The notes under the pieces: model-generated
Seen by the model: the letters and a program-made list of their open reading frames with translations, nothing else
What the model was told of the DNA's origin: nothing
The model's database searches: none
Part shown: positions 1,809-37,244 of the stretch, piece by piece
How positions within the stretch are numbered: the first letter of the stretch is position 1
Layout: every line of letters begins with the position of its first letter
Made by a program: the position numbers and the translations under genes
Source of the DNA: a virus
Virus record (IMG/VR): IMGVR_UViG_3300008954_000025
Coordinates: 1-64,000 of that record
Reading direction: 5' to 3' (one strand)
DNA length: 64,000 nucleotides

Positions 1809-1849
1809 CCGCGAACGTCGACACGGTGAAGACCCAGCTCCGCGTCTAA
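1805..1849 (+). CDS. Possible 14-codon coupling peptide
   Basis: GTG 1805 overlaps the stop of the upstream gene (GTGA) and opens a 14-residue frame (MTANVDTVKTQLRV) ending TAA 1847-1849. A strong AAGGAGGAGAG follows, 5-15 bases before the next ATG at 1867. It may be a real mini-protein, a ribosome landing stretch, or chance. It is included because the overlap pattern matches the neighbouring genes. Confidence 0.2.
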   Translation: MTANVDTVKTQLRV

Positions 1850-1866
1850 CAAGGAGGAGAGACCTG

Positions 1867-9352: not shown

Positions 9353-9366
9353 GAAAGGTCTGACCA

Positions 9367-11181: not shown

Positions 11182-11191
11182 GGGAGACACG

Positions 11192-18709: not shown

Positions 18710-18721
18710 GGAAGAAGACTG

Positions 18722-21407: not shown

Positions 21408-22382
21408 GTGGGGCTCAAGAAGCCCGGGGCCGTCACCACGGACACGGCCAATCAGTTCGCCGGCGCGGATGACAAAGCCGTCCCGGTCTCGGCGGACCGG
21501 TTGCTGCTCGAAGACTCGGCGGCAGGCGAGCCCCTCGCCGTATCTTCACTGGATGGCCTCGATCCGGAGCAGCGGGCGATCGAGCTCGGCAATCGCCTCC
21601 GAATCCGTTCGCCGGGCCTCGCTAAGGAGCTTCACGACGTCAGCCTGCGCCAGCTCGAGGACGAAGATCGGCGGAAGTCCGGGCTGGAGGCGAAAGCGTC
21701 CGGTCTCCTCCAAGCGGTCGGTATCTCGCTCGCGCTCCTCACCGCGTTTGGCGGCGCGATCATCATCAAACCCGAGTTCGTCGCAGCCCTCGGCTCCGCT
21801 GCCTGGTTCGTTCGATTCCTACTCCTCGCGGCGGTACTCGCCGGTATAGGGGCGGCGACCTGCGCTCTGCTCGCGCTCAAGGTGACGGAGTACCGCACGC
21901 TCCGCGACGAGGACGTGTTTAACGAGGAGTCTCTGCACGAAGCCGATTCCGCCTACAAATCAGACCAACCAGACACGGACAGGAACTCCGTCGCTTACTA
22001 CCACCGCTACATGACCATCGCCCACTGGCGGATCTACTGGTACGTCTTCGGGCTTCACAAGAAGAAAGCGAAGATCGTACGGTACGGCCAGCTGTGCTTC
22101 TTCGCGTTGCTCGTGTCGTTTGTGCTTCTCGCTGGGATGGTGATCCTGGGTGACGGAGACGCTGGTCGGAGCTGTGAAGCTGCCGCTGAACGCCAGCACG
22201 TCGATCGCGGCGTGGCTCGGCGAAGAGACCGGCACCTACGACGCGAACCTTCGGATCCGGAAGGCGAGCGACGCGACGGTCTTGACGACCTTGACTGCGT
22301 CCACCGCGATCAGCATGCTCACGTCCTCGCGCAGCTCGAATCGTATAGCTCCAGAGAATACGGCGCCGGAGGCGTAAGATGA
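21408..22382 (+). CDS. Chimeric membrane protein: fibre-type head, three membrane spans, out-of-frame tail
   Basis: Residues 1-50 (DDKAVPVSADRLLLEDSAAG) look like a phage fibre N-terminal module. Residues 55-95 are charged and helical. Membrane spans follow near 98-120 and 132-157, then a soluble segment, and a third span near 226-248. This layout recalls SLATT or Pycsar-type membrane effectors, by pattern only. From about residue 250 the frame reads through a remnant of the gene related to 18371 in the wrong frame (RSCEAAAERQHVDRGVARRR), so the native end was probably near 22150. A host-interaction role is speculative. Confidence 0.45.
   Translation: MGLKKPGAVTTDTANQFAGADDKAVPVSADRLLLEDSAAGEPLAVSSLDGLDPEQRAIELGNRLRIRSPGLAKELHDVSLRQLEDEDRRKSGLEAKASGLLQAVGISLALLTAFGGAIIIKPEFVAALGSAAWFVRFLLLAAVLAGIGAATCALLALKVTEYRTLRDEDVFNEESLHEADSAYKSDQPDTDRNSVAYYHRYMTIAHWRIYWYVFGLHKKKAKIVRYGQLCFFALLVSFVLLAGMVILGDGDAGRSCEAAAERQHVDRGVARRRDRHLRREPSDPEGERRDGLDDLDCVHRDQHAHVLAQLESYSSREYGAGGVR
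22150..22377 (+). pseudogene. Left fragment of a split copy of the gene at 18371
   Basis: The frame from 22150 reads VTETLVGAVKLPLN, GEETGTYDANLRI, ATVLTTLTAS. This matches residues of the 18371 protein (TVETWVGSVYLPV, GEETAAHDASLRI, SILTTLTS) up to about base 22302. Its own 5' end is missing and the frame then runs into unrelated sequence. The matching C-terminal part reappears at 23718, beyond the methyltransferase gene. Confidence 0.7.
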
Positions 22383-22407: not shown

Positions 22408-23718
22408 GTGAAGCTGACGGACAAGGAGTGCGAAGCGATCCTCCGCGAATACGAGCTAGTCGCTGCCGAATCACGTGTCGGCGAACACGAGAAATCCGTC
22501 GTGCCCAACGAGGACGCTGTTGGGATCCCCAACCACTTCTCCGCCCGCCTTAGCGAGCTCGACATGCGAATGGTCCATGCGGTTCCCGAAGGCGGCAACT
22601 GGAAAGACATCCCAGAGTCGATCCCGTCGAAGCGACTCGATCAGATCCGAGAGAGCTTCAAGCGTGGTGAAGGCAGCCGCTCGACCTACTATGGGCGCCT
22701 GCGACACGACATGCCGTCGTATACGATCAACACGTACTTCAATCGCCCTGGCAACGGTTGCCATATCCACCCCAGCCAAGCTCGCGTCCTCTCGCAGCGC
22801 GAAGCAGCTCGGCTACAGAGCTTCCCCGATAGATTTCGATTTGTGGGCCCTCAGGGCATCGTCAATAAGCAGATCGGGAACGCGGTCCCCCCACTGCTGG
22901 CCTTCCAGATCGCGGGCCAGCTCGGCTCGCCTGGGGTCTTCGTCGACCTCTTCTCCGGAGCTGGTGGTATGGGGCTCGGGTTCAGCTGGGCTGGCTGGCA
23001 GCCCCTTGTTGCAAACGACATCGAATCGAGGTTCCTCGAAACATACAGCCAGAATGTCCATGACAGCGTGGTCCTCGGAAGTATCACCGACCCTGTCGTA
23101 CGTGCGGAGATCATCGAACGTGCGCAGACGTTGCGCGAGAAGCATCCCGACAAGCCGTTTTGGATTCTTGGCGGCCCCCCCTGCCAAGGGTTCTCCACGG
23201 CGGGGCACAAGCGCTCGATGAAGGATCAGCGTAACCACTTGTTCTGGGACTACTGCAAGGTGCTCAAGGAGCTTCGTCCGGATGGCTTCGTGTTCGAGAA
23301 CGTGACCGGTCTTCTGAACATGCAGAAGGGCAAGGTCTTCGAGATGGTCAAGGAGGCATTCAAGTCCCTCATGCCGAAGGTCGATGGCTGGCTGCTGTCG
23401 GCCGACGAGTTCGCCGTCCCCCAACGCCGGAAGCGGGTGTTCTTGATCGGCACGGTCGACCCAGATCATGAGGTTCGCCAGCCCCAACGGCTCACGACCT
23501 GTGAATCCAACGGTGAACTCTTCAGTGAGAACGAGCGCGCCGTGTCAGTCGGTGAAGCCATCGAGGATCTACCTGCGCTGAAGGCGAGCCAAGACGGCTC
23601 GGACTTGGCATACGATAGTCCGCCGAAGACGACCTATCAGGCATTCATGCGTGGTCGAATCGGTCCCGCTGAGTTTCTCGAGAGTGTAACCCGCTCCCGC
23701 GGCTGGAGCGAGGAGTGA
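22408..23718 (+). CDS. DNA cytosine-C5 methyltransferase, circularly permuted
   Basis: The 436-residue enzyme would transfer a methyl group from SAM to cytosine in a DNA target. Motifs are permuted: target-recognition-like region at about 40-125, motif IX (REAARLQSFPD) near 131, motif X (QIGNAVPP) near 155. Then come motif I (DLFSGAGG) near 180, catalytic PCQG of motif IV near 258, ENVTG (VI) near 297 and QRRKR (VIII) near 339. GTG 22408 lies at the end of a 10-codon mini-frame (ATG 22379) that overlaps the upstream stop. GC is lower than in the neighbours, for example 35 of 60 bases at 22441-22500. The gene interrupts a virion gene, so it probably arrived by transfer. It may protect phage DNA from host restriction. 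Confidence 0.85.
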   Translation: MKLTDKECEAILREYELVAAESRVGEHEKSVVPNEDAVGIPNHFSARLSELDMRMVHAVPEGGNWKDIPESIPSKRLDQIRESFKRGEGSRSTYYGRLRHDMPSYTINTYFNRPGNGCHIHPSQARVLSQREAARLQSFPDRFRFVGPQGIVNKQIGNAVPPLLAFQIAGQLGSPGVFVDLFSGAGGMGLGFSWAGWQPLVANDIESRFLETYSQNVHDSVVLGSITDPVVRAEIIERAQTLREKHPDKPFWILGGPPCQGFSTAGHKRSMKDQRNHLFWDYCKVLKELRPDGFVFENVTGLLNMQKGKVFEMVKEAFKSLMPKVDGWLLSADEFAVPQRRKRVFLIGTVDPDHEVRQPQRLTTCESNGELFSENERAVSVGEAIEDLPALKASQDGSDLAYDSPPKTTYQAFMRGRIGPAEFLESVTRSRGWSEE

Positions 23719-24070: not shown

Positions 24071-24304
24071 GTGCCGCACCCGTTCGTCCACGAACACGCG
24101 CCGACAATCAAGGACGTAGCGAAAATTCTCAACGTCAATGAAAGGACCGTCTATCGGCCGGTCCAACGGGGCGAGCTTCCGGCGTTCAAGGTGGCCGGTG
24201 CCTGGCGCTTGCTCGCCGGCGACGTCGACCGCTGGATCGACTCACAGAAGGCCGTCACGGCCGACGAGGCTGGTCGGATCACAAGCAAGGCGACCAATGG
24301 CTGA
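24071..24304 (+). CDS. Excisionase/MerR-type helix-turn-helix protein
   Basis: The 77-residue protein matches the short DNA-binding domain of the excisionase family: TIKDVAKILNVNERTVYRPV (helix-turn-helix), GELPAFKVAGAWRLLAGDVD (wing) and WIDSQK. In standard members the helix-turn-helix residue after VYR is often basic; here it is Pro-Val, which is unusual. Such proteins act as transcription or architectural factors. No integrase is nearby, so regulation is more likely than excision. It overlaps the next start by 8 bases. Confidence 0.6.
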   Translation: MPHPFVHEHAPTIKDVAKILNVNERTVYRPVQRGELPAFKVAGAWRLLAGDVDRWIDSQKAVTADEAGRITSKATNG

Positions 24305-24624: not shown

Positions 24625-24699
24625 GCGCGTGTAGCTCAGTTGGCAGAGCGCCCGGCCTAAGCAGTCGGGAGGTCCGAGGTTCGACCCCTCGCGCGCGCG
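24625..24699 (+). tRNA. tRNA with enlarged anticodon arm, identity unclear
   Basis: All arms can be drawn: acceptor GCGCGTG/CGCGCGC (one G-U), D arm GCTC/GAGC, variable AGGTC, T arm CGAGG-TTCGACC-CCTCG, discriminator G, and no encoded CCA. The anticodon arm has 19 bases, not 17: CCCGG-CCTAAGCAG-TCGGG. It is either a 5-bp stem with a 9-base loop, or a 6-bp stem with loop CTAAGCA placing AAG after U33. The short variable loop does not fit a leucine tRNA. Identity is therefore undetermined. Confidence 0.75.
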
Positions 24700-24724
24700 C
24701 TCGAGCCTTGTCGTCCGGACAGAA

Positions 24725-24940
24725 ATGTGGCAGCGTCCAGCTCGCGTGTCCGGACGGAAACCCAAGATCGGTCGTCCGCCGGGGTCCGAGTTCCCCGACC
24801 GCGTCGAGATTCGCGTGCGCGCCGGCGACAAGCGCGAGCTCGCGGCGCGCTACGAAGCCGAGAACGCTGAGCGGTCGCCGCGATACCGCTTCGCCTCCAT
24901 GGCGGCTTGGATGCGGCGGAAGCTCGGACTGCGGCCATGA
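24725..24940 (+). CDS. Small basic protein after the tRNA
   Basis: The 71-residue protein is Arg/Pro-rich, with GRKPKIGRPPGSEFPD, then RVEIRVRAGDKRELAARYE and a Trp/Arg helix. GRPPGS resembles minor-groove-binding AT-hook-like loops, and RVEIRVRAGDKRELA resembles the strand-helix start of ribbon-helix-helix repressors. A small DNA-binding protein is plausible. Its stop overlaps the first glycosyltransferase start by 4 bases, so it may lead that operon. Confidence 0.5.
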   Translation: MWQRPARVSGRKPKIGRPPGSEFPDRVEIRVRAGDKRELAARYEAENAERSPRYRFASMAAWMRRKLGLRP

Positions 24941-26151
24941 CTCGTCGTCTGCTCCTGCACTGCGACTCGCTGTGCGCGAGCACCGGCTTCGCGGGCGTCG
25001 CGCGTACGATCATCGCCAACCTCGACGGCTGGGAGATCGACCAGGTCGGTATCAACCATCCCAACGCGCTCGATGAGCACGACCGCGTCCGCATCTACCC
25101 GACGCGCGGCCAGACCGACCACGGCGGGCAGCTCGCGTGCGACCTGTACCTGCAGCGCGACTACGACGTCATGCTCATCGTGCAGGACCTCCACGTCGGT
25201 GCGCAGTGGGCGCGCGGACTCCGGAGCGCGCAGGTGCAGCGCGCCCGCCAGGGTCGTAGGAAGACGCCCGTCGTCTTCTTGTTCCCCGTGGACGGGCCGA
25301 TGCTCGGCTTCACCGAGCTGGTCGACCTCGCCGACTGCGCCGTGAGCTGTACGCGATGGGGGCAGCGCGTAGTCGGTGCCCTGTCGACGTCCCGCGTGCA
25401 GGTCATCCCGCACGACGTCAGCAGCGACGCGTTCCACACGCTCCCCGAGGCGGAACGGGCGCGGCTGCACAGCAGCGTGTTCAACGTGGCGCCCGAGACA
25501 CTCACGCTGCTGTCGGTGGCGGTGAACACCATCCGCAAGGACTTGTTCCAGGTGCTCCAAGGCATCGCAGCGCTGAAGGCGCGCCGCGGTCCGGTCGCCA
25601 AGATCCACTTCCACACGCCCGGCGTGCATCAGGACATGAACCTCCGTCTCATGGCGTCGGCGCTGGACCTGGTGCAAGGCATCGACTACCAGATCGCGGA
25701 CCCGTCGCTGCTGGGCGCGCCGCGCGAGGTCATCAACGAGCTCTACAACGCCGCTGACGGGCTCGTGTTCGCGTCGCGGCGCGAGGGCTGGGGTCTGCCC
25801 ATGACGGAGGCGATGGCCGCAGGGACCGCGGTCGTCGCGCCCCGCTACGGGCCGTTCGAGGAGCTGCTGGCTCCGGACCGTGGGCTCCTGCACGAGCCTG
25901 CCGGCCAGATCTGGACTGACAAGGAGCACAGGGGCCCGTGCTGGTTGTCCGACCCGGAGGCCATCGCCGACCAGCTCGAACGCCTGCTGGACATGCGCGG
26001 GACGCCCGAGCATCAGCAGCTCCTCGAGCGCGCCCGCGCTCGTGTGCAGCGCTTCGCCCCAGAGATTGTGGCCGAGCGCTGGCGGAAGTTGCTGTACGAC
26101 GTCATGGACGGGCAGGAGCCGGCCCCGACGCCCGGCGAGGAGCTGTCATGA
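24937..26151 (+). CDS. Glycosyltransferase, GT-B fold (GT4-like)
   Basis: The 404-residue protein opens the sugar island. The C-terminal half has the GT4-like donor site: ELYNAADGLVFASRREGWGL then PMTEAMAAGTAVVAPRYGPF, the E-x7-E type region that holds the nucleotide-sugar. The N-terminal half (LLHCDSLCASTGFAGVARTI) has the acceptor-domain loop seen in this superfamily. It would add sugar to a glycan, protein or other acceptor, which cannot be predicted. ATG 24937 overlaps the upstream stop. Confidence 0.75.
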   Translation: MTRRLLLHCDSLCASTGFAGVARTIIANLDGWEIDQVGINHPNALDEHDRVRIYPTRGQTDHGGQLACDLYLQRDYDVMLIVQDLHVGAQWARGLRSAQVQRARQGRRKTPVVFLFPVDGPMLGFTELVDLADCAVSCTRWGQRVVGALSTSRVQVIPHDVSSDAFHTLPEAERARLHSSVFNVAPETLTLLSVAVNTIRKDLFQVLQGIAALKARRGPVAKIHFHTPGVHQDMNLRLMASALDLVQGIDYQIADPSLLGAPREVINELYNAADGLVFASRREGWGLPMTEAMAAGTAVVAPRYGPFEELLAPDRGLLHEPAGQIWTDKEHRGPCWLSDPEAIADQLERLLDMRGTPEHQQLLERARARVQRFAPEIVAERWRKLLYDVMDGQEPAPTPGEELS

Positions 26152-27329
26152 CCGCGCTCTGGGCGCCCGTGCGCCGTGAGGCAGAAGGCCTTCCGCCCGT
26201 CCGCTTCTCGGCCGACTTCGCGTCGCCGACGGGCTACGCGAACGACGCGCGCATGCTGGCCTACGCGCTCATCCAGGCCGGCGTGGACGTGACGCTCGAC
26301 GCGATCCCGATGGACTGCGGGACTGCGCACTTCGGCCCCGTCGCCGAGGCGCTGCGCCCACACATCGACCGCGAGCTCGACGCGCCGATCCAGATCCTGG
26401 ACACCATCCCCAGCTTCTGGCCGCAGTACCGTCGCAAGGACGCGCAGCATGCAGTGGCGCGGCTCGCGTGGGAGACGGACACGACGCCGCCCGAGTGGGC
26501 TCAGCTCGCGCGGCGCTGCGCCATCGACGAGGTCTGGACGCCGAGCACGTTCAACCGAACCGTGCTGTCTGACGGCCTCCGAGCCCCCGGCTTCACGGTC
26601 CCGATGGCGCACGACCTGGACTTCATCGATCAGCACTCCGAGGGCCTGGATCTGCGGGAGCAGGGCGTCGCGAACGACGTCTTCGTGTTCCTGACCGTGG
26701 GGACCTGGATCAAGCGGAAGAACTTCGAGGGGCTGCTGGCGTCGTACTGCGCCGAGTTCGGGCCGGACGACGCCGTGTGTCTCGTGCTCAAGGTCAATAG
26801 CGGCCGAGTCGACGCCGCGGCGCGGGCGGCGATCGAGGCCGAGGTCGCAGACATCTTGATCAGCCTCGGCGCGGACCGCCGGCTGCCGCCGATCATCATC
26901 CTGCAGCAGCACCTGCCGACCGCCGAGATGATCGGCCTGTACCGGCGCGCGCAGTGCGGCGTGTTCCCGACGTTCGGCGAGGGTTGGGGGCTGCCCATCA
27001 GCGAGATGATGGCGTGCGGCACCTCATCGATCGTGACGGGATGGGGCGGCGTGCTCGAGTTCTGCGACGAGACGACGGCCTGCCTGCTGCCCTACCAGCC
27101 GACACCGGTACGCGGCATGCGGCCGATGCCGTGGTACGACGCGCGCCACAGCTGGGCCGAGCCGGATCTGTGCGCGCTGCGCGGGCACATGCGCTACGTG
27201 TTCGAGCACCGAGACGAGTGGCAGAAGACCGGCTGGGTCGCGAAGCGCCGCATCCAAGAGAACTACAACATGCGCGCCGTGGCGCTGCGGATGGTCGCGC
27301 GCCTGCGTGCGATCGCGGGGGGCCTGTAG
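26148..27329 (+). CDS. Glycosyltransferase, GT-B fold (GT4-like)
   Basis: The 393-residue protein has the same layout as its upstream neighbour: FSADFASPTGYANDARMLAY at the N-terminus, then VWTPSTFNRTVLSDG, FLTVGTWIKRKNFEGLL, and the donor site LYRRAQCGVFPTFGEGWGLP with ISEMMACGTSSIV. The retained E-G-W-G-L-P and E-M-M-A-C-G elements suggest an active enzyme. Both ends show 1- to 4-base overlaps with neighbours. Substrate unknown. Confidence 0.78.
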   Translation: MTALWAPVRREAEGLPPVRFSADFASPTGYANDARMLAYALIQAGVDVTLDAIPMDCGTAHFGPVAEALRPHIDRELDAPIQILDTIPSFWPQYRRKDAQHAVARLAWETDTTPPEWAQLARRCAIDEVWTPSTFNRTVLSDGLRAPGFTVPMAHDLDFIDQHSEGLDLREQGVANDVFVFLTVGTWIKRKNFEGLLASYCAEFGPDDAVCLVLKVNSGRVDAAARAAIEAEVADILISLGADRRLPPIIILQQHLPTAEMIGLYRRAQCGVFPTFGEGWGLPISEMMACGTSSIVTGWGGVLEFCDETTACLLPYQPTPVRGMRPMPWYDARHSWAEPDLCALRGHMRYVFEHRDEWQKTGWVAKRRIQENYNMRAVALRMVARLRAIAGGL

Positions 27330-28180
27330 TGCGCGTCGTGCTCGCCACCATCGCCTTGAACGAGGCGGAGTTCATCCCGCGGCAGCTCGCGCAGCACCTC
27401 GCTTGGCCGGGTCTCGTCGGCTGGGTCTGGGTCGAGGGCGCCGCCGAGCACTACGGCCGAAAGCACCCGGCGGCCGTGTCCCGCGACGGCCGCTCGGTCG
27501 ACGCCACGTCGCAGCTGCTGGCTGCGGCTGCGCAGCGCGACCCTCGCGTGCGGTACGTGGCGCACGGCTGGGCGCAGGGCGGTGAGCGGACGATGGGCGC
27601 CCAGAAGATCCAGCTCCGCAACGCCTACTGCACGGTCGCCGACGAGCTGGACGCAGACGTCCTGGTCGTCATCGACGCCGACGAGTTCTACACGCGAGAG
27701 GACCAAGAGCGGATCCTCGACCTCATGGCGATGCGCGGGGCGGACCACGACGCGTTCCTGTTCCGCCAGCGGCACCTGTGGCGGCCGCCGTCGCTGCTCG
27801 GCGACGAGGCGCGCTACGAGGTCACCGGGGGCTACTGGGCCGTACCGCACGTCCGCGTGTGGTGGTACGAGCGTGGCGCCCGGTACCAGAACCACAACCA
27901 CCTCGCGCTGCCGGGTCAGCGCTATAACCCGAAGCGTCTGTACCGTCCCGAGCCCGGCGACCCCGAGTGCGTGCACCTCGGCTTCGCCCGCGACCCGCGT
28001 CACCGACTCCGGACGAATGCCTACTACGTCGCCCGAGGCGAGGGCCGCGAGCGCGGCTTCAACCGTCAGCACTACGTCGACTGCCGCGAGGCGTGGGCGA
28101 CGTGGCTCCCGGACACCGCGCTGCCACAGGGCGCAAAGGTCGGCGCGTACGAAGCCGTGTTGCCGGAGGTGTTGCGATGA
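27329..28180 (+). CDS. Glycosyltransferase, GT-A fold (family 2-like)
   Basis: The 283-residue protein starts at GTG 27329, overlapping the upstream TAG. It begins RVVLATIALNEAEFIPRQL and has ADVLVVIDADEFYTREDQER near residue 110, the metal-binding D-x-D of GT-A enzymes. Downstream are RHLWRPPSLLGDEARYEV and many His/Arg residues (NHNHLALPGQRYNPKRLY) that could bind an acceptor. It is similar in style to glycosyltransferases acting on cell-surface or virion glycans. Confidence 0.7.
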   Translation: MRVVLATIALNEAEFIPRQLAQHLAWPGLVGWVWVEGAAEHYGRKHPAAVSRDGRSVDATSQLLAAAAQRDPRVRYVAHGWAQGGERTMGAQKIQLRNAYCTVADELDADVLVVIDADEFYTREDQERILDLMAMRGADHDAFLFRQRHLWRPPSLLGDEARYEVTGGYWAVPHVRVWWYERGARYQNHNHLALPGQRYNPKRLYRPEPGDPECVHLGFARDPRHRLRTNAYYVARGEGRERGFNRQHYVDCREAWATWLPDTALPQGAKVGAYEAVLPEVLR

Positions 28181-28938
28181 CGCGGGAGGTCTGGCTGCGA
28201 TCCATCACCCGCGCCTTGACCTGGCGCGTGATCGCGTCGGTCACGACCGCGGTCATCGCCGTGGGCGTGTTGGTTGAGCGTGGCGCGGTGTCCCGCGCTG
28301 CGGTCCTCGGCGGCGCGCTGGCCGTCTTCGGCGCCGACTTCTTGGTCAAGCTGGCGCTGAAGATCGCGCATGAGCGTGTCTGGGCCGACGTGCGGTGGGG
28401 CCTCGAGCAGCGTCCAGGGTACATCGTGGCGCTGTTTGGCCTGCCATGCTCCGGCAAGACCACGATCGCGCGGAGTCTGGCGGATCTGCTCGACGAGCCA
28501 GGACGGACGGTCGTGCGACTGGACGGCGACACCCTCCGAGGCGAGGACGGGCTCTGCCGGGACCTGGACTTTTCGCAGGAGGGTCGGGCCGAGAATCTGC
28601 GGCGGACACGTTGTCTGGCTGCGGCGCTCGCCGACGCAGGCGCGGGCGTCGTCGTCGCGAACATCATGCCGTACGCAGCTGACCGCCAGTTGCTGCGCGA
28701 GGTGCACGCGCGCGTGCTCATGGTGCATGTGGACACGCCGGCCGATGTCTGCGAGGCGCGCGACGTCAAAGGCATGTGGAAGAAGGCGCGGACGGGTGAG
28801 CTCGCTGACTTCACCGGTGTCGACGCGCCCTTCGAGCCAGCGGCGGCGGGCGTAGTTACCGTCCGGTCGGTAGGTGCCACACCCGAAGCGTGCGCCGAAG
28901 AGATTCACGCAGTGCTCTGCGACCAGGAGTGGCTATGA
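28177..28938 (+). CDS. cysC: Fused DUF2061 membrane domain and APS kinase
   Basis: The 253-residue protein has two parts. Residues 1-75 match the DUF2061 pattern: SITRALTWRVIASVTTAVI, a second hydrophobic stretch AAVLGGALAVFGADFLVKLA and HERVW. Residues 78-253 are adenylylsulfate kinase: P-loop GLPCSGKTT at 88-96, VRLDGDTLR, DLDFSQEGRAENLRR, CEARDVKGMWKKAR and FTGVDAPFE. The kinase makes PAPS, the sulfate donor for sulfotransferases. The membrane part would place it at the membrane. The gene lies in the glycosyltransferase operon with ATGA overlaps at both ends, suggesting a link to sulfated glycans. Confidence 0.82.
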   Translation: MTREVWLRSITRALTWRVIASVTTAVIAVGVLVERGAVSRAAVLGGALAVFGADFLVKLALKIAHERVWADVRWGLEQRPGYIVALFGLPCSGKTTIARSLADLLDEPGRTVVRLDGDTLRGEDGLCRDLDFSQEGRAENLRRTRCLAAALADAGAGVVVANIMPYAADRQLLREVHARVLMVHVDTPADVCEARDVKGMWKKARTGELADFTGVDAPFEPAAAGVVTVRSVGATPEACAEEIHAVLCDQEWL

Positions 28939-29981
28939 CCGGTACGCGCATCGGCCTCGTCGGCTACTGCTGCCCGACAGGTCTCGGCTACGAGAACCGC
29001 CGCATGTGGAGCGGCCTGCCGGACGTGCGCTGGCTCGTGTGGCCGCACGAGCTGCTCGGCGTCGCTGACCTCGACACCTTGTCCGGCGACGGCGGCGAGC
29101 TGGACCTGTCGGCGGTCCAGACGGAGTCCAGCGTCGACGTCTGCGTCGATGCGTTCCTCGACGGCGTGGACGTGGTGGTCTGCGCCGAGCGGCCGTTCCC
29201 AGATGACTTGTTCAGCCGCGCACACGCCCGCGGCGTGAAGACCGTCCTGCTCATCAACCCGGAGTGGCGGGTCGGCGAGTCGTGGTCTGAGGCCGACGTG
29301 GCCGTCGCACGCACTGCCGTGTGCAAGCGCGTCGTGGAGCAGGTCACTGGGCGCCGCGACGTTCACCACATCCCCTGTCCGCTGGACATCGAGCAGCTGC
29401 CCTTCGCCCATACGCTCCGGGCGGACTGGGGCCTATACTCGCACGGCTGGGGCGGGGTGCACGACCGCAAGGGCTGGCCGACGATCCGCGCCTTGTTGAA
29501 CGTCTCGCCGACGGCACCAGTCATCGTGCGGTCTCAGCGCGTTCTCCTCGATTCACCAGTGCCGGTACACCCGGCGGTCGACTCGCCCGCAGATCTGTAC
29601 AGCCCGGACGGTGATGTTTCGGCTGACATCGCGATTCAACCGTCACGGTTCGAGGGTGTGGGCCTAGCCATCCTCGAAGCCATGGCGTGCGGCCTGCCGG
29701 TGCTCACGACTGACGCGCCGCCCATGAATGAGTACCTGCACGCAGCCTACGGTGACCTCGCGCACTACGCGCTGCTCGCTGTCGAACGCGTGGACCTCGT
29801 GCCCATGTGGGCGCCGTGGCCGTCGAACCTCGTGGAGCCGTCCGTCGTGGCGGAAGTTATGGCGAAGCTGCAGGCCGAACCGGACGTCGTCGCCGAGCTG
29901 TCGCTGCGCGGGCGCGCCTACGTCGTGAAGCATCACGGTGAAGCCGCGTGGGCCGCGCTACGGGAGGCCGTCATCGGATGA
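28935..29981 (+). CDS. Glycosyltransferase, GT-B fold (GT4-like)
   Basis: The 348-residue protein has a Rossmann start (IGLVGYCCPTGLGYENRRMW), an acceptor domain with VLLINPEWRVGES, then WGGVHDRKGWPTIRALLNVS. The donor-site signature is DIAIQPSRFEGVGLAILE followed by AMACGLPVLTTDAPPMNEYL, as in GT4 enzymes. The E-x7-E spacing is kept, so it is probably active. It overlaps both neighbours by 4 bases. Confidence 0.75.
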   Translation: MTGTRIGLVGYCCPTGLGYENRRMWSGLPDVRWLVWPHELLGVADLDTLSGDGGELDLSAVQTESSVDVCVDAFLDGVDVVVCAERPFPDDLFSRAHARGVKTVLLINPEWRVGESWSEADVAVARTAVCKRVVEQVTGRRDVHHIPCPLDIEQLPFAHTLRADWGLYSHGWGGVHDRKGWPTIRALLNVSPTAPVIVRSQRVLLDSPVPVHPAVDSPADLYSPDGDVSADIAIQPSRFEGVGLAILEAMACGLPVLTTDAPPMNEYLHAAYGDLAHYALLAVERVDLVPMWAPWPSNLVEPSVVAEVMAKLQAEPDVVAELSLRGRAYVVKHHGEAAWAALREAVIG

Positions 29982-30985
29982 AGATTCACATCGTCACGCA
30001 CGAGGACATGGACGGCTTCCTGTGGGGCGTGCTCGAGGGCTGGCTCAACGGCTACACGCTCAGCCAGCACGAGGTCCGGATCAGTGGAGACCGTACCCTG
30101 CTCGGCGCCGCATCGCCCGACTTCTGGGAGACGCTGCCGACGACCGACGCGATCCTCTTCTGTGCCACGAGCGCCAAGTCGACCTGCGCGCCGCGCGCGC
30201 TCGAGCTGATCGCCAAGCACGATCTGTGGAAGCGCATCGTGCACTCTGACTACGTGCACAACACCAAGCTCAAGTACCCGAAGCTCGCGGAGCGTTGCGG
30301 GCGCCTCTTCGTCGGCAAGCGCTACAAGTACCTACGCTGCTGCGAGGGCTGGGACCACGCCGAGTGGCTGCCGCGTACCGGCATTCAGCGGCGAACGGGG
30401 CGGTACCTGCCACCGCTGCCGTGGCGACTGTGGAAGGACCTCCCCGCCGTCGGCGTCTACCACACGTTCAAGGCCGCACAGAAGCACCGGCTGCCGTGGC
30501 TGAAGGCCGCGCGCGAGGTGCTCCCGAACGGCGTGTATGGCGCTGTGGAGCCGCCAGCTCAGCAGCAGCCGCTGCTGCAGAAGGTCTACGGCACGCGCCA
30601 CAACAGTAACTACCTGGAGCTGGCGTCGCGTGCGCGCATTGGTCTGTACCTCATGGGCGGCACGGCGCTCGGCCACCAGTTCTGGGAGTACGCCGCGCTC
30701 GGCTGCGCCATCGTCGCACAGCATGCGAGCACGCACCCGCTGGCCGAAGAAGGCACGCAGGAGTGGGAGCACTTCGGCGAGGCCGGCGGCGTGTCACTCG
30801 TCGAGGGCGAGGACTTCGTCTACTTCAAGACGGAGGACGAGCTCCGGTCGCTGTTCGCCGAGCTGGACGCCGACCCGGAGCGCTGTGAGCAGATGGCGAA
30901 GCGGGTCACCGCGAAGACGACGCAGTTCTACAGCGGGTTCCGCGGCTGGTACGTGATGCAAGCTCTGAAGGAGGTCGCGCGGTGA
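29978..30985 (+). CDS. Probable glycosyltransferase (GT-B-like)
   Basis: The 335-residue protein begins IHIVTHEDMDGFLWGVLEGW. The C-terminal half has RHNSNYLELASRARIGLYLM, then GGTALGHQFWEYAALGCAIV and VSLVEGEDFVYFKTEDEL, resembling the donor-binding half of GT-B enzymes in which a Glu holds the sugar-nucleotide. The first half is less typical and rich in Lys and Trp (HTFKAAQKHRLPWLKAARE). Assignment is by fold pattern and operon context. Confidence 0.6.
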   Translation: MKIHIVTHEDMDGFLWGVLEGWLNGYTLSQHEVRISGDRTLLGAASPDFWETLPTTDAILFCATSAKSTCAPRALELIAKHDLWKRIVHSDYVHNTKLKYPKLAERCGRLFVGKRYKYLRCCEGWDHAEWLPRTGIQRRTGRYLPPLPWRLWKDLPAVGVYHTFKAAQKHRLPWLKAAREVLPNGVYGAVEPPAQQQPLLQKVYGTRHNSNYLELASRARIGLYLMGGTALGHQFWEYAALGCAIVAQHASTHPLAEEGTQEWEHFGEAGGVSLVEGEDFVYFKTEDELRSLFAELDADPERCEQMAKRVTAKTTQFYSGFRGWYVMQALKEVAR

Positions 30986-31158
30986 CGCTTGAAGGTCGCA
31001 AGATCACCAGTTCCCCGCTCAGGTTGGACCGCGCGCGCTTGACCATGCAGTTGCAAGAAGCGCGGTCGCGTCTCGGCTTGCGCGACTTGCTTGGGCCGTG
31101 GGGCAGGCCAGCAGAACCGAAGCCTAACGTGCACCTCCTCATGCCCAAGAGACTGTGA
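30982..31158 (+). CDS. 58-residue protein between sugar genes
   Basis: GTG 30982 overlaps the upstream stop (GTGA) and TGA 31156-31158 overlaps the next ATG (TGATG), so the frame fills the gap exactly. The peptide is basic and helical (PLRLDRARLTMQLQEARSRL), then GLRDLLGPWGRPAEPKPN and HLLMPKRL. No function is recognised. The double overlap is the main evidence that it is a real gene. Confidence 0.55.
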   Translation: MTLEGRKITSSPLRLDRARLTMQLQEARSRLGLRDLLGPWGRPAEPKPNVHLLMPKRL

Positions 31159-31730
31159 TGACGCCGCAACTCGACGACAACCCGCAACCGTGGCTGGCAG
31201 CTGAGGCTGTCGCGCACTTGGAGCGCGCGCTCACGTCGCGGTCGCACGTGCTCGAGTTCGGGGCCGGCAACTCCAGCGTTTGGTTAGCCGAGCGCTGCGG
31301 CCAGCTCGTCTCGGTGGAGAGTGCGCTTCCGTGGGCGGCGCTTCTCGTTCGAGCGCTCAAAGGCGCCGACCACGTCTCCGTCATTCACGTCCCGCCGGAC
31401 GAGACGCCCCACCCTCCGTTCCGCGGCGCTCGCGGGAAGTCGTACCGTGCATACGTCGAAGCTGGCGTGTCGGCCGTCGCAGACGAGCTCGGGGGCCGCC
31501 TGGACCTGCTCCTCGTGGACGGCCGCGCGCGTGTCGCGTGCATTCGAGCGTGCGCTCCGTTGGTGCGGCCCGGCGGACTGCTCGTGCTCGATAACGCCGA
31601 CCGGCCACGCTACGCGCAGGCGCCGCGTTTCCTGATCGACGGCGGCTGGGAGCACGAGGCCACTTACACGGCCGACTTCGGAGATCGGCCCCCACAGACG
31701 GCGTTCTGGCGCCGGAGCGCAGGCACATGA
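31158..31730 (+). CDS. Class I SAM-dependent methyltransferase-like protein
   Basis: The 190-residue protein has HVLEFGAGNSSVWLAERCG, a motif I with the G-x-G loop, followed by LVSVESALPW with the acidic residue at the end of strand 2. LDLLLVDGRARVACIRACAP is motif IV-like and PGGLLVLDNADRPRYA is strand 5. An alternative GTG start lies one codon upstream (31155). It may methylate a sugar or small molecule made by the island. The target is unknown. Confidence 0.65.
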   Translation: MTPQLDDNPQPWLAAEAVAHLERALTSRSHVLEFGAGNSSVWLAERCGQLVSVESALPWAALLVRALKGADHVSVIHVPPDETPHPPFRGARGKSYRAYVEAGVSAVADELGGRLDLLLVDGRARVACIRACAPLVRPGGLLVLDNADRPRYAQAPRFLIDGGWEHEATYTADFGDRPPQTAFWRRSAGT

Positions 31731-32287
31731 ACAAGAAACTTCAGGCAATCAAGGCCGCGATGGCGTACGTTCCCGGCTACGCCGAGATCGACGTGTTTGT
31801 GGAGACCGGCACGGCGTTCGCCACGACGGCGACAGCTGCGTGCGAGGTCTTCGCGGAGGTGCACTCCATCGACCTGTCAGAGAAGCTGCACCAGCGCGCG
31901 GTGGAGCAGTTCGGTGACCGCGAAGGCTTGACCTTCCACTTCGGCGATAGCGCTGAGGTACTGCCGCAGGTGCTCGCGAACATCGCCCGGCCGGCGGTGG
32001 TCCTCCTGGACGCGCACTACTGTCGAGGCTTTGCTGACGCTGCAGCCAGGCAGTCGTTCCCGCTGTGGTCCGAGCTGGACACGCTACTGGCCCGACCGTA
32101 CGCCGACCTCGTGCTGGTGGACGACATCCACACCTTCGGCCGCGAGCGGCCGGACATCAGGGCAACGGACGGTCCGGAGTGGGAAGCCGTAACGCCCCGC
32201 ACCCTCGCCGCTTACGTCAACGAGCGGCTGGTGACGCACGCGCCGTTCCGCGATCAGTACGCGCTCTTCATGAAGGCGGCGACGTGA
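31727..32287 (+). CDS. Class I methyltransferase-like protein
   Basis: The 186-residue protein begins with a helix, then FVETGTAFATTATAACEVFA (a G-T-G-like motif I), VHSIDLSEKLHQRAVEQFGD, LTFHFGDSAEVLPQVLANIA, AVVLLDAHYC and DLVLVDDIHTFGRERP. These follow the strand order of SAM-binding Rossmann folds found in sugar O-methyltransferase-like proteins. ATG 31727 overlaps the upstream stop. It ends 8 bases before the convergent radical SAM gene. Confidence 0.6.
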   Translation: MNKKLQAIKAAMAYVPGYAEIDVFVETGTAFATTATAACEVFAEVHSIDLSEKLHQRAVEQFGDREGLTFHFGDSAEVLPQVLANIARPAVVLLDAHYCRGFADAAARQSFPLWSELDTLLARPYADLVLVDDIHTFGRERPDIRATDGPEWEAVTPRTLAAYVNERLVTHAPFRDQYALFMKAAT

Positions 32288-32295
32288 CGGGCGGA

Positions 32296-33264
32296 TCAGT
32301 TGCAGCCGTCGCAGATGGAGAGCTGCCGGCGTCCGCCACGCTCGCGGGTGGTTTGGTACAGGTCGCTGTTGACGATCTCCAGCAGGCTCCCAACCTCGAC
32401 CACGTTGCCGAGCTCCAGTTCGTAGTTCATGTCGTGGCAGCAGATTGTCACGTTCCCGTGGGGACTGATCGACGGGCGCCGTGCGTGCCGGCAGCCACCG
32501 CGGTTGCTGACGAGGCGCGTCTTACCGTCTATCTGCTTAGTGGTCACGCGAGCGCGCCAGGTGCGGTTGGTGGGCAGCGCGGTCAGCGCCTCCTCGTGCT
32601 GCTCCTCGGTCATCGCGCCGATCTTGTACAAGCCCATCTGTTTGGGCTGCCACTGCGGCAAGCCGTAGCTCGTGATCTGCTTCTGCAGCGCAGCCAGCTC
32701 GTGCTCGTTCCACGCCGTGACGATCGACGCGCCGGTGGTGTAGAGGCCGGGTGTGTCGCTGCGCCTCTGTTCCCCTCGCCGCTGCACCATAGCGCCCAGT
32801 GTCTGCAGGTTCTGCTTCTGCTGACTGATGTTGATCCGGCCTGCGATCTTGAGCGCCGTCTCCTTTTCGAGCGAGTCGACTTCGTAGACGATGCGGAGCT
32901 GCTTGCCGTGCGACTTGAACACGTCGCACATGGCGTCGATGCGCGCCCAGTCGACGGAGACCGCAAGTTTACTTGCGATTTCTGTCGTCATCCCACTGTC
33001 GGCGACGTGCTCCAGCAACTCGTAGATGTCGGGGTGAGCGAAGGACTCGCCGGCTTGATAGACGATCGCACGCGAGAAGCCCTCAGCCTTCATGATGTCG
33101 ATGATCTGCTTGAACATCGGCGTGGGCATGACCGCGTTGGTTCCTGTCTGCCAGCGCTGGTGGTGGCAGTAAACGCAGCGGTGGGGGCACACAGAGCAGA
33201 CGTCGACGAGGCTAGTTTTGGGCCGCCAGGGGTATTGCGCGAGGTCCGCTGCAGAGGTGGTCAT
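32296..33264 (-). CDS. Radical SAM enzyme with C-terminal cysteine cluster
   Basis: The 322-residue protein carries CPHRCVYC near residues 26-33, the C-x3-C-x2-C that binds the [4Fe-4S] cluster cleaving SAM. Then follow YQAGESFAHPDIYELL and a TIM-barrel-like core. The C-terminus has SPHGNVTICCHDMNYELELG and CDGC, recalling the auxiliary-cluster region of SPASM or twitch proteins. ATG 33264 was chosen over upstream starts because Pro/Arg-rich sequence precedes it and a promoter-like TGC-TAGGCT lies 7 bases before. It is the only leftward gene between 1 and 61 kb. It may modify a sugar, peptide or nucleotide; the substrate is unknown. Confidence 0.8.
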   Translation of the reverse strand: MTTSAADLAQYPWRPKTSLVDVCSVCPHRCVYCHHQRWQTGTNAVMPTPMFKQIIDIMKAEGFSRAIVYQAGESFAHPDIYELLEHVADSGMTTEIASKLAVSVDWARIDAMCDVFKSHGKQLRIVYEVDSLEKETALKIAGRINISQQKQNLQTLGAMVQRRGEQRRSDTPGLYTTGASIVTAWNEHELAALQKQITSYGLPQWQPKQMGLYKIGAMTEEQHEEALTALPTNRTWRARVTTKQIDGKTRLVSNRGGCRHARRPSISPHGNVTICCHDMNYELELGNVVEVGSLLEIVNSDLYQTTRERGGRRQLSICDGCN

Positions 33265-33271
33265 CCTGGCC

Positions 33272-33280
33272 AGCCTAGCA
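33272..33280 (-). promoter_or_regulatory. Extended -10 promoter for the radical SAM gene
   Basis: On the minus strand TGC-TAGGCT ends 7 bases before ATG 33264. No ribosome site lies between. It gives this opposite-strand gene its own, probably leaderless, transcript. Confidence 0.4.
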
Positions 33281-33299
33281 CACGGCTGCGAGGGGCGGA

Positions 33300-33845
33300 G
33301 TGATCCGCTACGCCGAAAAGGTCGGGCGCGCTGTGTCCCTGGCGCGGTGCGTGCCGGAGTTGTTCGCGGAGGGGCAGCGCTCGGTCCTGTACGTTGGGGC
33401 GCGTGCGTCACGGACCGAGTTCGCCGAAGACCTCGCTGCAGCCGGCGCCACGATCGACGTGCTCGAAGCGTGGGCGCAGAACGTCGCCGACTTGCGGGAG
33501 GCCGCGCCGTCTTGGCTGCGGCACGTGTTCCATCACGACGTCCGCGACGTGGATCTGCTACCCGCGCTGCACTACGACGTGGTCTTCTGGTGGCACGGTC
33601 CCGAGCACGTCACGCGGCTCGAGGCGCAGCGCACCGCGGTCAAGCTCCAGCGCATCGCGCCGCTCGTCGTGCTCGGCTGTCCGTGGGGCGACTATCCGCA
33701 GGGCGCGCTCGGCGGCAACCCGTACGAGGTCCACCAGTGGGCCCCCGAACCGGAGGAGTTCGAGGCGCTCGGCTTCGACGCCGAGGTGCTCCCACCGAGG
33801 GGCCGCGGCGGCAACATCCTGTCGTGGTGGCGCAAGAGAGGTTGA
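33300..33845 (+). CDS. Methyltransferase-fold protein, possibly non-catalytic
   Basis: The 181-residue protein starts at GTG 33300, divergent from the radical SAM gene. SVLYVGARASRTEFAEDLAA looks like a Rossmann strand-loop-helix but lacks the usual G-x-G-x-G. TIDVLEAWAQNVADL gives a strand-2 acidic residue, and YDVVFWWHGPEHVTRLEAQR resembles strand 4. It resembles proteins that sense or modify small molecules within glycan loci. Catalysis is uncertain because motif I is degenerate. Confidence 0.5.
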   Translation: MIRYAEKVGRAVSLARCVPELFAEGQRSVLYVGARASRTEFAEDLAAAGATIDVLEAWAQNVADLREAAPSWLRHVFHHDVRDVDLLPALHYDVVFWWHGPEHVTRLEAQRTAVKLQRIAPLVVLGCPWGDYPQGALGGNPYEVHQWAPEPEEFEALGFDAEVLPPRGRGGNILSWWRKRG

Positions 33846-33846
33846 C

Positions 33847-34485
33847 GTGACGAGCTACGACCCACTGACCTACTGGACCGAGCGCACGCGCAAGTTGCTG
33901 GACACCGACAACCCGGCGCTGGTGCATCGCGACCGGAGTCTCGAGGTCGACGTCAAGACGGCTGACTGGCTGCGTGCGGTCCTGCTGTCTGAAGAGCTGC
34001 GCCTTGGCCATAAGCCGTCGATCCTCGAGGTCGGCTGCGGGTTCGGGCGCTGGTCGCAGATCCTGAAGTCGCGGTACGCCCGCTACGTCGGCGCCGACAT
34101 CGTAGCTGACCGCGTGCAGGTCGCGCTGGACGACTACGCGGCGGACAACGTCGACTTCGTCGTCGTGGCGGCCGACGGTCGGTGGGATGTGCAGGCGCCA
34201 GCGGACGTTGTCCCGGTCGACGTCGTCATGTCGATCACCGTGCTGCAGCACGTCGACTTCGACACCACCGCCCGCCTGCTGCAGACCATGGACCGGCACC
34301 TCAAGCCTGGCGGCGCCGCGCTGCTCGCCGAGTGGCGCATGTACGACGAGCCACAACAGATGCTGGACGCGCGAACGCACGAGGCGCACATGTTGCCGAA
34401 GTCGATACCCGAGCTGCGTGCAGTCGTCCCGGACCTCAACTGGACCGGGCGCCAAGGCCGCTTCATCTTGAGGAAGCCAGAATGA
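33847..34485 (+). CDS. Class I SAM-dependent methyltransferase
   Basis: The 212-residue protein has SILEVGCGFGRWSQILKSRY (motif I, complete), YVGADIVADRVQVALDDYA, VDFVVVAADG, DVVMSITVLQHVDFDTTARL and PGGAALLAEWRMYDEPQQ, all in canonical order. It starts at GTG 33847, one base after the upstream stop. The end overlaps the next gene by 4 bases. Sugar or lipid methylation fits the context; the acceptor cannot be read from sequence. Confidence 0.78.
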   Translation: MTSYDPLTYWTERTRKLLDTDNPALVHRDRSLEVDVKTADWLRAVLLSEELRLGHKPSILEVGCGFGRWSQILKSRYARYVGADIVADRVQVALDDYAADNVDFVVVAADGRWDVQAPADVVPVDVVMSITVLQHVDFDTTARLLQTMDRHLKPGGAALLAEWRMYDEPQQMLDARTHEAHMLPKSIPELRAVVPDLNWTGRQGRFILRKPE

Positions 34486-35489
34486 AGATCGTCAGCGTTT
34501 GCCGAACCTATCCGACGCAGCGTCCGGGCGGCATGCCGCACGTCACGCAGGACCGTGCAAGAGCGCTTGCGCGAGCTGGTCACGACGTCACGGTCGTGAC
34601 CACGAGCCTGAAGGACGACGGCCGAACCGAGCTGGACGATGACGGCGTGCGTGTCGTGCATACGGCCTGCCCGTCGCAGGCGTACACGCCGCTGTTCGCC
34701 GAGCGGTGCCGCTGGGAGTGCGAGGACCTCGCGCCGGACGTGATCCACCTCGACAGCTTCGACCGCGCGCGGCCGTGGTGGGTCGGCCTGTCGGCGCGCA
34801 CCGTGGTGACGATGCACGGCTTCGGCGTGGGCGCGATGCTCACGTCGTGGAACAAGTTCCTGGCCGGAGGCCGCACGGCGCCGATGCCGGACTGGTCCGC
34901 GCTGCGCGACGAGGCGGACGTGCTGCAGACGTTCGATCGGGTCTTGGCCATCTCGACCCACGAGCAGTGGATGCTGTCGGACGTGTACAACCTGCAGGAC
35001 CGCGTGCGCTTGGTGCCTAACCCGATCGCGCCGTACTTCTTCGACATGCCGTGGCCCGTACCGGCCGTGCCGGCGGCCCCATTCGTGTGCATCGGGAACC
35101 CCGGCACCAGCGGCAATCGCGACTTCGGCCGGGTCCGCGACGCGGCGCGAGCAGCTGGCGTACCGCTCGAGGTCATCACTGGCGTGGAGCGCTCCCGCAT
35201 CCCGCAGATGCTCGACGAGAGTCAGGGGCTCGTGCTGCCGACGCTGTGGTCGCAGGGCTACGACCTCGCTGTGGCCGAAGCTCTAGCGCGTCGGCGCCCC
35301 GTCATCGTCTCGGGTACCGGCTCGTACTGGCACCTGCGCGCTCCGTACGTTCGCGTCATCCCGCGCGCGGCCGCGTTAGACGTACTTGTTGAGGCGCTCC
35401 AAGCAGCACTACCGGAAGTGCCCGCCGGCGCCGCGGACGACCACCGCCCCAACCGGCACGTCGACGCATGGGAGGCCGCTCTTGCCTGA
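34482..35489 (+). CDS. Glycosyltransferase, GT-B fold (GT4-like)
   Basis: The 335-residue protein begins IVSVCRTYPTQRPGGMPHVT, the glycine-rich loop that binds acceptor or phosphate in GT4 enzymes. TVVTMHGFGVGAML and AISTHEQWMLSDVYNL follow, then a C-terminal domain with SRIPQMLDESQGLVLPTLWS and YDLAVAEALARRRPVIVSGT. The Glu of the E-x7-E region is partly conserved. ATG 34482 overlaps the upstream stop (ATGA) and its stop lies inside the next frame. Confidence 0.72.
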   Translation: MKIVSVCRTYPTQRPGGMPHVTQDRARALARAGHDVTVVTTSLKDDGRTELDDDGVRVVHTACPSQAYTPLFAERCRWECEDLAPDVIHLDSFDRARPWWVGLSARTVVTMHGFGVGAMLTSWNKFLAGGRTAPMPDWSALRDEADVLQTFDRVLAISTHEQWMLSDVYNLQDRVRLVPNPIAPYFFDMPWPVPAVPAAPFVCIGNPGTSGNRDFGRVRDAARAAGVPLEVITGVERSRIPQMLDESQGLVLPTLWSQGYDLAVAEALARRRPVIVSGTGSYWHLRAPYVRVIPRAAALDVLVEALQAALPEVPAGAADDHRPNRHVDAWEAALA

Positions 35490-36798
35490 TCGCGCACTCG
35501 CTGTCTTCGGCCACAGCCGCCCCGAACTGCTGCGTCGCGTGCTCGCGCAGGTGCCCCAGCTCGACGGCGCGAACGAGTTCGACCTGTGGTGCTTCATCGA
35601 CGGCCCAAGGGAGCACGACGCGGAGCTGGTGCAGCAGTGCGAGGCTGTAGCTCGCGCCGTCGTCCCTCGGGAGCGGTTGGTCGTGCGCGGCAAGAATCTC
35701 GGTGTCGGCCTGCACCAGACCGGGGCGCGTCGATTCTTGTTCGAGGAGCAGGGCTACGACGCCGTGCTGCAAGTCGAAGACGACGTCGAGCTCTCACCCT
35801 GCGCGCTCACGGCGCTCGGCGCGCTGCACCATGCGAAGCCGGGTCTGGTAGGCCACAGCTTCATGGACACGCGCAGCTCGCGTGAGAAGCTGGGCGCGCT
35901 TCGGGACGTGCGTCCTGGAGCGGCGCTGCTGTGTGCGCTGATCACCGGCGAGGTGTACGACGCGACGGCCGGGACGATGGACGCGTACGCCGAGCGCTTC
36001 CTCATGCCGCTGCACCAGCGCGGGCGCCCGTACAAGTGGCGGGACGACGCAGCCATCCGCAAGTTCCTGTCGGACCTCGTCGGCCACGACGTGACGTCGC
36101 TGTACCCGACGAGCCAGGACGCCGTGCTGCTCGCCGCGTGCGTCGCGGCCGACGTGCCCGTCTGGTCGCCGACGGTGAACCACATTCGGCACGTCGTCGA
36201 CACTGGCGAGCACGTGCTGCCCAGCTCGGACGTGGGCATTGCCTGTCGACGGACCAAGCTCGACCTCTTCCCTGGTGCGGTGGCGGTCACTGCGCTGTCG
36301 GACCCGCAGCTGGACGACACGTCCCCTCCGCTGGGCAGCCAGCGCAGCTACCTGCACGTGAGCCTGCTGCAGCTGTACACCGAGGCCCGGCCGGAGACCG
36401 CGATTCAGTACGGCATCACGCCGGCGACGCCTGTGCTATTGGGCCTGACCGGGGGCGAGCTCCACACGGTCGAGGTCGAGCGCGCGTGGCAGGAGCGCGT
36501 GGCGTTCGACCTCCCGGCGCGGAGCTTCGGGCGCTGGTGCCCGCATGGAGGGCGGTCGTTCGCAGGCGTGGCGCGGCTGGACGATGCACTGGCCCGGGTC
36601 CCTGGGCTGCCGAGGGAAGCCGACCTGGTGCTCGTGAACGCGCCGGCCGGCAGTGCGTGCTTGCGAGCCGCGGCGCGGCGCGTCGCCCCCGGCGGCCTGC
36701 TACTGACTGACGATCCGCGTGCCCGGCCCCCTAGCGGTCCGTGGCACCGCATAGACATCGACGGCGGAGCCGCGTTCCGTCGCACGGAGGACTCATGA
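35482..36798 (+). CDS. GT-A glycosyltransferase-like protein with C-terminal extra domain
   Basis: The 438-residue protein starts at TTG 35482, chosen because it overlaps the upstream stop by 8 bases and begins right at RALAVFGHSRPELLRRVL. LWCFIDGPREHDAELVQQ and DAVLQVEDDVELSPCALTAL (a D-D-x-E metal site) recall GlcNAc-transferase-I-type GT-A folds. Residues beyond about 310 form a second Rossmann-like part (ATPVLLGLTGGELHTVEVE, APGGLLLTDDPRARPP) resembling a methyltransferase remnant. It closes the island and overlaps the next ATG. Confidence 0.6.
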   Translation: MPDRALAVFGHSRPELLRRVLAQVPQLDGANEFDLWCFIDGPREHDAELVQQCEAVARAVVPRERLVVRGKNLGVGLHQTGARRFLFEEQGYDAVLQVEDDVELSPCALTALGALHHAKPGLVGHSFMDTRSSREKLGALRDVRPGAALLCALITGEVYDATAGTMDAYAERFLMPLHQRGRPYKWRDDAAIRKFLSDLVGHDVTSLYPTSQDAVLLAACVAADVPVWSPTVNHIRHVVDTGEHVLPSSDVGIACRRTKLDLFPGAVAVTALSDPQLDDTSPPLGSQRSYLHVSLLQLYTEARPETAIQYGITPATPVLLGLTGGELHTVEVERAWQERVAFDLPARSFGRWCPHGGRSFAGVARLDDALARVPGLPREADLVLVNAPAGSACLRAAARRVAPGGLLLTDDPRARPPSGPWHRIDIDGGAAFRRTEDS

Positions 36799-37244
36799 GC
36801 AACGTAGAAGACACCGGTGGCCGCGAGCCTGCCGAGGGGCTCCGGAAGCAGCGGCGTGCCGAGGCGGCCGCGCGCCGGCGCGCCGCGGCCAAGGATCGCC
36901 CACCCGCGGAGCCGTGTTGGGGCCAGGTGGTTGCGGTGGAGCCGGCCGACATCGACCGCTTCGCCGCCCTGCACCAGAAGTCGCAGGCCGAGCGGCTCCG
37001 GTTCGCGGACATGGCAGCCAGCGCGATGCAGCAGCTGGCCCCGCAGCTCCTGGCAATGGGCGAGGCGAACAAGGAGGTCCGCGGCGTGTTGACGCACCTC
37101 GCCGAGAAGTATCGCATCACCCCCGAGGAGCGGGGCGCGGACGCTGTGTGGGAGCTGCTGCCGGCTGAAGGCGGCTTCGTCCGCCGCGATGAGGTCCCCG
37201 AAGTCCCGGTGCCGCCCGCGCCGGACACCCCGGACGACCCTTAG
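36795..37244 (+). CDS. Helical protein at the island-neck junction
   Basis: The 149-residue protein starts at ATG 36795, overlapping the upstream stop. An Arg/Ala-rich basic segment (KQRRAEAAARRRAAAKDR) precedes a helix-rich middle (FAALHQKSQAERLRFADMAA) and a Pro-rich acidic end (VPVPPAPDTPDDP). No family is recognised. It could be a small assembly protein for the neck genes that follow or the last gene of the sugar operon. Confidence 0.5.
   Translation: MSNVEDTGGREPAEGLRKQRRAEAAARRRAAAKDRPPAEPCWGQVVAVEPADIDRFAALHQKSQAERLRFADMAASAMQQLAPQLLAMGEANKEVRGVLTHLAEKYRITPEERGADAVWELLPAEGGFVRRDEVPEVPVPPAPDTPDDP

Follow-up and report, generated by a model that had tools for sequence, protein, structure and literature searches.

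We analysed a window made up of the first 64,000 bases of a viral contig 87,892 bases long (IMG/VR record IMGVR_UViG_3300008954_000025), in which an island of 13 enzyme genes (24,937-36,798, ~12 kb) lies between the capsid/fibre genes and the neck gene of an uncultivated tailed phage, a myovirus with an SPO1-like capsid module. Judging by gene content and comparison with relatives, the best explanation of the island is that it probably decorates the phage's own virion proteins by glycosylation. Gene calls were made by gene prediction with a codon model together with profile searches. The contig may be incomplete, and "absent" below means absent from this contig only.

Gene calls and profile matches bear out an earlier sequence-only reading of an enzyme island in the virion operon, and the profile searches which that reading proposed have been run, giving Pfam assignments over the curated cut-off for most genes. 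Seven genes encode glycosyltransferases: five GT-B enzymes of the GT4 kind, one GT2, and one GT-A enzyme fused to a methyltransferase. The earlier count was six, and six do exceed a Pfam cut-off; the seventh is the 35,482-36,798 gene. GT4a (24,937-26,151; PF00534, 49.4 bits against a cut-off of 26.4) and GT4b (26,148-27,329; PF13692, 32.2 against 27) are GT-B enzymes with an EX7E motif, while GT2a (27,329-28,180; PF00535, 24.0 against 23.3) is a GT-A enzyme of the GT2 family with a DxD motif. Further along are the GT-B enzymes GT4c (28,935-29,981; PF00534, 42.9 against 26.4), GTd (29,978-30,985; glycosyltransferase-like, PF13524, 27.9 against 25), and GT4e (34,482-35,489; PF13439, 67.4 against 28.5), the last without the first Glu of the EX7E motif.

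The remaining genes are three methyltransferase-like genes, one Rossmann-like gene, an APS kinase, and a radical SAM/SPASM enzyme. Four methyltransferase-fold proteins had been claimed, and two of them, the S-adenosylmethionine (SAM) methyltransferases MT24a (31,158-31,730; PF13578, 27.3 against 26.3) and MT25 (33,847-34,485; PF13649, 55.9 against 27), pass their cut-offs. The other two are weakly indicated as methyltransferase-like: MT24b (31,727-32,287) by a PF13578 score of 16.8, under the cut-off of 26.3, and the Rossmann-like protein (33,300-33,845; 86% identical in the sister virus described below) by motifs seen by eye, profile searches having found no methyltransferase match for it. 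A structure model of the Rossmann-like protein was of poor quality and was not used. The APS kinase (28,177-28,938; PF01583, 142.5 bits against 21.1, E 1.4e-41) and the radical SAM enzyme (32,296-33,264; PF04055, 38.6, and PF13186, 38.3, both over the cut-off; CxxxCxxC motif; weak match to PqqE) are as originally called.

All of these genes are on the plus strand except the radical SAM gene, which is on the minus strand and so falls outside the coupled operon. Eight of the 12 internal junctions are overlaps (1, 4, or 8 bases). Gaps of 1 and 172 bases separate the genes at two others, and the remaining two are those on either side of the inverted gene, so the statement that nearly all genes are coupled by 1-8-base overlaps was slightly too strong. 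There are overlaps at both ends of the island as well: a small plus-strand open reading frame (ORF; 24,725-24,940, 71 aa), which DNA alignment shows to be conserved in the sister virus, overlaps GT4a by 4 nt, and the last island gene overlaps by 4 nt a small plus-strand gene (36,795-37,244), which lies ahead of the neck gene and, among the loci searched, is confined to island-bearing relatives.

The last island gene (35,482-36,798, TTG start) had no profile match over the cut-off, and its assignment draws on other evidence. Its AlphaFold2 model has a mean pLDDT of 56, better in residues 1-110 and 150-220, and Foldseek matches the model to GT-A enzymes, the top match being N-acetylglucosaminyltransferase I (GnT-I, 1fo8; E 1.5e-6). 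A local hidden Markov model ties its Methyltransf_24-like C-terminal domain to the MT24a family. Homologues in two relatives (L026, L041) are without this domain.

Comparison with relatives shows that the island is maintained. A sister virus (L011-L014, L017, L018; ~80% DNA identity) carries this island too, but lacks the APS kinase and has an extra GT61-like gene between GTd and MT24a, whose protein falls just under the Pfam GT61 cut-off (25.8 against 27). We rejected a swap of MT24a for GT61, as MT24a is also present there. Against this virus, the ratio of nonsynonymous to synonymous substitution rates (dN/dS) is 0.11-0.32 for the 12 shared island genes and 0.08-0.37 for virion genes; the APS kinase, having no counterpart there, is outside the comparison. 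All testable island genes are therefore under purifying selection, like virion genes. These ratios, together with the homologues that independent relatives carry at the corresponding site, show that the island is not a product of chance, and spurious ORFs are ruled out by coding scores, profiles, and dN/dS.

We also compared the site itself among 56 loci in which a capsid gene is visible together with a neck or sheath gene downstream of it. Most have 0.3-2.9 kb between the two. Six loci have 6-9 kb; at least four of these were read (L023, L034, L100, L101), and they contain fibre-type genes, with no glycosyltransferase match found in those four. The interval reaches ~10.3 kb in two distant island-bearing lineages (L026/L111 and L041/L112/L113; capsid 53% identical) and 20.7 kb in the window. 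The order GT4a, GT4b, GT-A gene is kept in both distant lineages at this site between the major capsid protein (MCP) and neck genes, with GT4a orthologues in L018, L026, and L041, and GT4b orthologues in these and L113. Beyond this core, one lineage has a second GT-A-like protein, deacetylase-like and acetyltransferase-like proteins (labels taken from sequence features, without a Pfam match), and an inverted methyltransferase, and the other has MT24a (homologues in L013, L041) and an inverted amidohydrolase. Comparing the core order across sites places the ~8 kb of further enzymes in the window lineage between GT4b and the GT-A gene. GT2a has a relative in the sister virus only, and the shorter islands lack the radical SAM gene. 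Because the site in relatives holds fibres only, a short island, or nearly the same island, the island is modular, with a conserved core of three glycosyltransferases and exchangeable decoration genes.

The closest parallels in kind are mycobacteriophages. Cluster O phages have an O-methyltransferase and glycosyltransferases between the portal and capsid protease (PMC4351075), and the genes of Firecracker (cluster O) show the same glycosyltransferase placement. Virion proteins of Che8, Corndog, and Myrna are reported to be glycosylated (PMC12363180, PMC11256854). Like the island, Che8 and cluster O phages encode glycosyltransferases and Methyltransf_24-type methyltransferases, inside the virion gene set in cluster O, and Che8 gp108 is a fusion of the two, as is the 35,482 gene. 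However, Che8 gp108-110 are at the genome end, so placement in the virion operon is not universal in known cases. These systems also differ from the island in having three to four enzymes instead of thirteen, mostly GT-A/GT25 instead of GT4, and a virion type unlike the SPO1-like capsid, and neither an APS kinase nor a radical SAM gene was seen in the stretches of them looked at.

Other viruses share parts of the arrangement. Chlorovirus PBCV-1 glycosylates its capsid protein with its own enzymes, including A64R, a GT-A domain fused to an O-methyltransferase (PMC4691112). The parallel to the 35,482 gene is one of domain layout; PBCV-1 is a eukaryotic giant virus with some nucleotide-sugar genes of its own, whereas the island virus is without these. 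Among phage records, the top match of GT4a is a glycosyltransferase of Tetrasphaera phage TJE1 (27% identity), which has a methyltransferase nearby and is followed by the terminase. Unlike the island, the TJE1 region is ahead of the terminase, includes a nucleotidyl transferase and a nucleotide-sugar epimerase, and has one glycosyltransferase annotated in the stretch. No annotated phage relative emerged from tblastn with the radical SAM, GT2a, 33,300, and GT-A proteins, and searching phage records at the nucleotide level gave no match to the island.

Several observations favour a virion target: the island is inside the virion operon in several lineages, its transferases are soluble (hydropathy showed no clear membrane segments in the island's glycosyl- or methyltransferases), and mycobacteriophages provide a precedent. 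No flippase, polymerase, or lipid-carrier transferase is among the island's family matches, and neither the epimerase/dehydratase family (PF01370) nor sugar nucleotidyltransferase (PF00483) was found in the contig, in keeping with the earlier proposal that donors come from the host. With soluble transferases, no lipid-carrier machinery seen, and no sugar-nucleotide or thymidylate-synthase genes, stepwise cytoplasmic glycosylation of protein with host donors fits best. The earlier proposal left virion, host surface, or DNA as possible targets; virion protein is now favoured, and DNA is disfavoured by the missing thymidylate-synthase-type gene.

We infer the following route. GT4a, GT4b, and the GT-A protein, the cytosolic core, would use host nucleotide sugars to make a short glycan, attached directly to protein, during particle assembly; the likeliest acceptors would be capsid or head/fibre proteins. 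GT2a, GT4c, GTd, and GT4e would extend or branch it, and the methyltransferases would add methyl caps. The APS kinase may supply 3'-phosphoadenosine 5'-phosphosulfate (PAPS) to a sulfotransferase, host-encoded or unrecognised, giving sulfation, and the radical SAM enzyme may modify a sugar or the acceptor protein. The benefit would be a changing surface coat.

Some results weigh against glycosylation of virion proteins. Apart from an 89-aa protein at 19,720, there is no strongly Ser/Thr-rich virion protein, and a virion protein as the acceptor is predicted from genes alone, both virus and host being uncultivated. The contig, possibly incomplete, has no match to the sulfotransferase families PF13469, PF00685, PF03567, and PF19798. 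Lipid-linked precursors of host polysaccharide are also possible substrates for soluble GT4 enzymes. Lastly, blastp and hhalign gave no convincing match between the island and the glycosylation enzymes of Che8 and Firecracker, and the Pfam families common to the island and the Che8/cluster O enzymes are methyltransferases and GT2 only. Because sequence homology is not detectable, the similarity to the mycobacteriophage system is one of kind.

The host cell surface is a possible but unlikely target, its capsule or lipopolysaccharide precursors being modified during infection, e.g., to block superinfection or re-adsorption to debris. GT4, GT61, methyltransferase, deacetylase-like, and acetyltransferase-like genes are typical of surface-polysaccharide gene sets, which the island and its relatives, with their GT61-like, deacetylase-like, and acetyltransferase-like genes, resemble. 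The island also adjoins a fibre gene that looks beta-helix-like by eye, and such a fibre could bind or cut polysaccharide. However, a gtrA-type flippase, Wzx, Wzy, and an initiating sugar-phosphate transferase are not among the island's family matches, which sets it apart from Gtr serotype conversion with its membrane flippase and polyprenyl-linked transferases. The solubility of the transferases counts against a host-surface target as well, as does the island's position in the virion operon in all lineages, which implies late expression.

Quite improbable, in our view, is a biosynthetic gene cluster making a glycosylated small molecule or modified peptide. The SPASM radical SAM enzyme is weakly like PqqE and maturases of ribosomally synthesised and post-translationally modified peptides (RiPP type), and it sits beside transferases and methyltransferases. 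However, no precursor peptide, non-ribosomal peptide synthetase/polyketide synthase, or export gene was recognised among the island's family matches, and the radical SAM gene, being inverted and missing from shorter islands, is outside the core.

DNA-directed glucosyltransferases are known in phages (T4), and this virus also has DNA methylases, but glycosylation of phage DNA as an anti-restriction measure is very unlikely: such systems use hydroxylated-base enzymes, no thymidylate-synthase/hydroxymethylase-type gene for modified bases was found in the 87.9-kb, possibly incomplete contig, thirteen genes with several methyltransferases exceed the needs of known DNA glucosylation, and the island is apart from the replication genes.

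Returning to glycosylation of virion proteins, the APS kinase raises the question of sulfation. The enzyme passes the NCBI curated equivalog-domain cut-off (TIGR00455, 141.8 against 138.7), and alignment and a motif check show that it keeps the P-loop, DGD, RDVKG region, and TG motif. Its hydrophobic N-terminus is DUF2061-like, just under the cut-off (21.8 against 23.1). Viral APS kinase relatives in L005, L006, and L008 likewise adjoin glycosyltransferase or methyltransferase genes. L005 and L006 have sulfotransferases over the cut-off nearby, which the window virus does not, and L008 has a sub-threshold one. Where sulfotransferases adjoin the APS kinase, this suggests glycan sulfation by those viruses; in the window virus, with four sulfotransferase families absent from the contig, we treat sulfation as a hypothesis. 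L005 is a better candidate for phage-encoded glycan sulfation: at 6768-11,553, an APS kinase whose N-terminus is extended by a nucleotidyltransferase-like region adjoins two sulfotransferases and glycosyltransferases. Another contig, L002, encodes a PAPS reductase family protein (18,240-18,974), with a possible link to APS kinase.

A bolder version of our proposal, which we put forward as a speculation with the odds against it, is a sulfated, multiply methylated virion glycan made by a modular pathway, in which the three-transferase core is joined by swappable APS kinase, GT61, deacetylase-like, acetyltransferase-like, amidohydrolase, and radical SAM genes. Sugar coats would then differ among related phages as O-antigen does among bacteria.

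Phage virion glycosylation is best described so far in a few mycobacteriophages with small enzyme sets, and the island would be a large new version of this known but little-studied trait. Thirteen genes in a phage with an SPO1-like virion, arranged as a core with exchangeable decorations, suggest that the glycan coats of phage particles may be complex and diversifying, and the three-gene core gives a defined set for testing. If the APS kinase does serve sulfation, sulfated sugars on phage particles would be a new surface chemistry.

The gene order around the island is terminase, portal, capsid, fibre, island, neck, sheath, and baseplate. Profile searches place the large terminase at 5,983, the portal at 9,367, and a scaffold-like gene at 14,258; the MCP at 15,108 is ~35% identical to SPO1-group head proteins. 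Small head proteins are encoded at 16,645 and 17,032. Fibre-type genes run from 17,361 up to 21,404, including the beta-helix-like one at 19,986. Neck genes are at 37,273 and 38,352, and the sheath is at 40,844, with baseplate genes beyond in operon order. Replication genes are at the right end of the contig. Metagenome bins of relatives point to Gemmatimonadetes, Myxococcales, Latescibacterota, and others, which is weak and conflicting host evidence from binning alone, and we assign no host from it.

The region between the fibre genes and the island holds several insertions and small features. A cytosine-5 DNA methylase (22,408-23,718) has its C-terminal-type motifs (LQSFPD and GNAVPP) ahead of FxGxGG, so it is apparently circularly permuted; it is missing in the sister virus, has a low GC content at third codon positions (0.74), and is inserted into a fibre gene. 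A membrane-protein ORF (21,408-22,382) is inserted in the same fibre gene, of which an out-of-frame remnant (22,150-22,377) matches a 183-aa gene of the sister virus. No RNA family was detected with Rfam in 20-40 kb. Just upstream of the island is a tRNA-like sequence (24,625-24,700; Leu(AAG)), at 76 nt short for a leucine tRNA and without an Rfam match at the gathering threshold; no tRNA was found among the relatives searched. Ahead of it is a small ORF (24,071-24,304) which by eye is helix-turn-helix and excisionase-like, with no homologue found in the relatives searched. L002 also encodes a 924-aa protein (1327-4101) joining an N6-adenine (D12) DNA methylase to an AAA/Rad50-like region, and a DNA polymerase A (7080-9998) with an N-terminal uracil-DNA-glycosylase-family domain.

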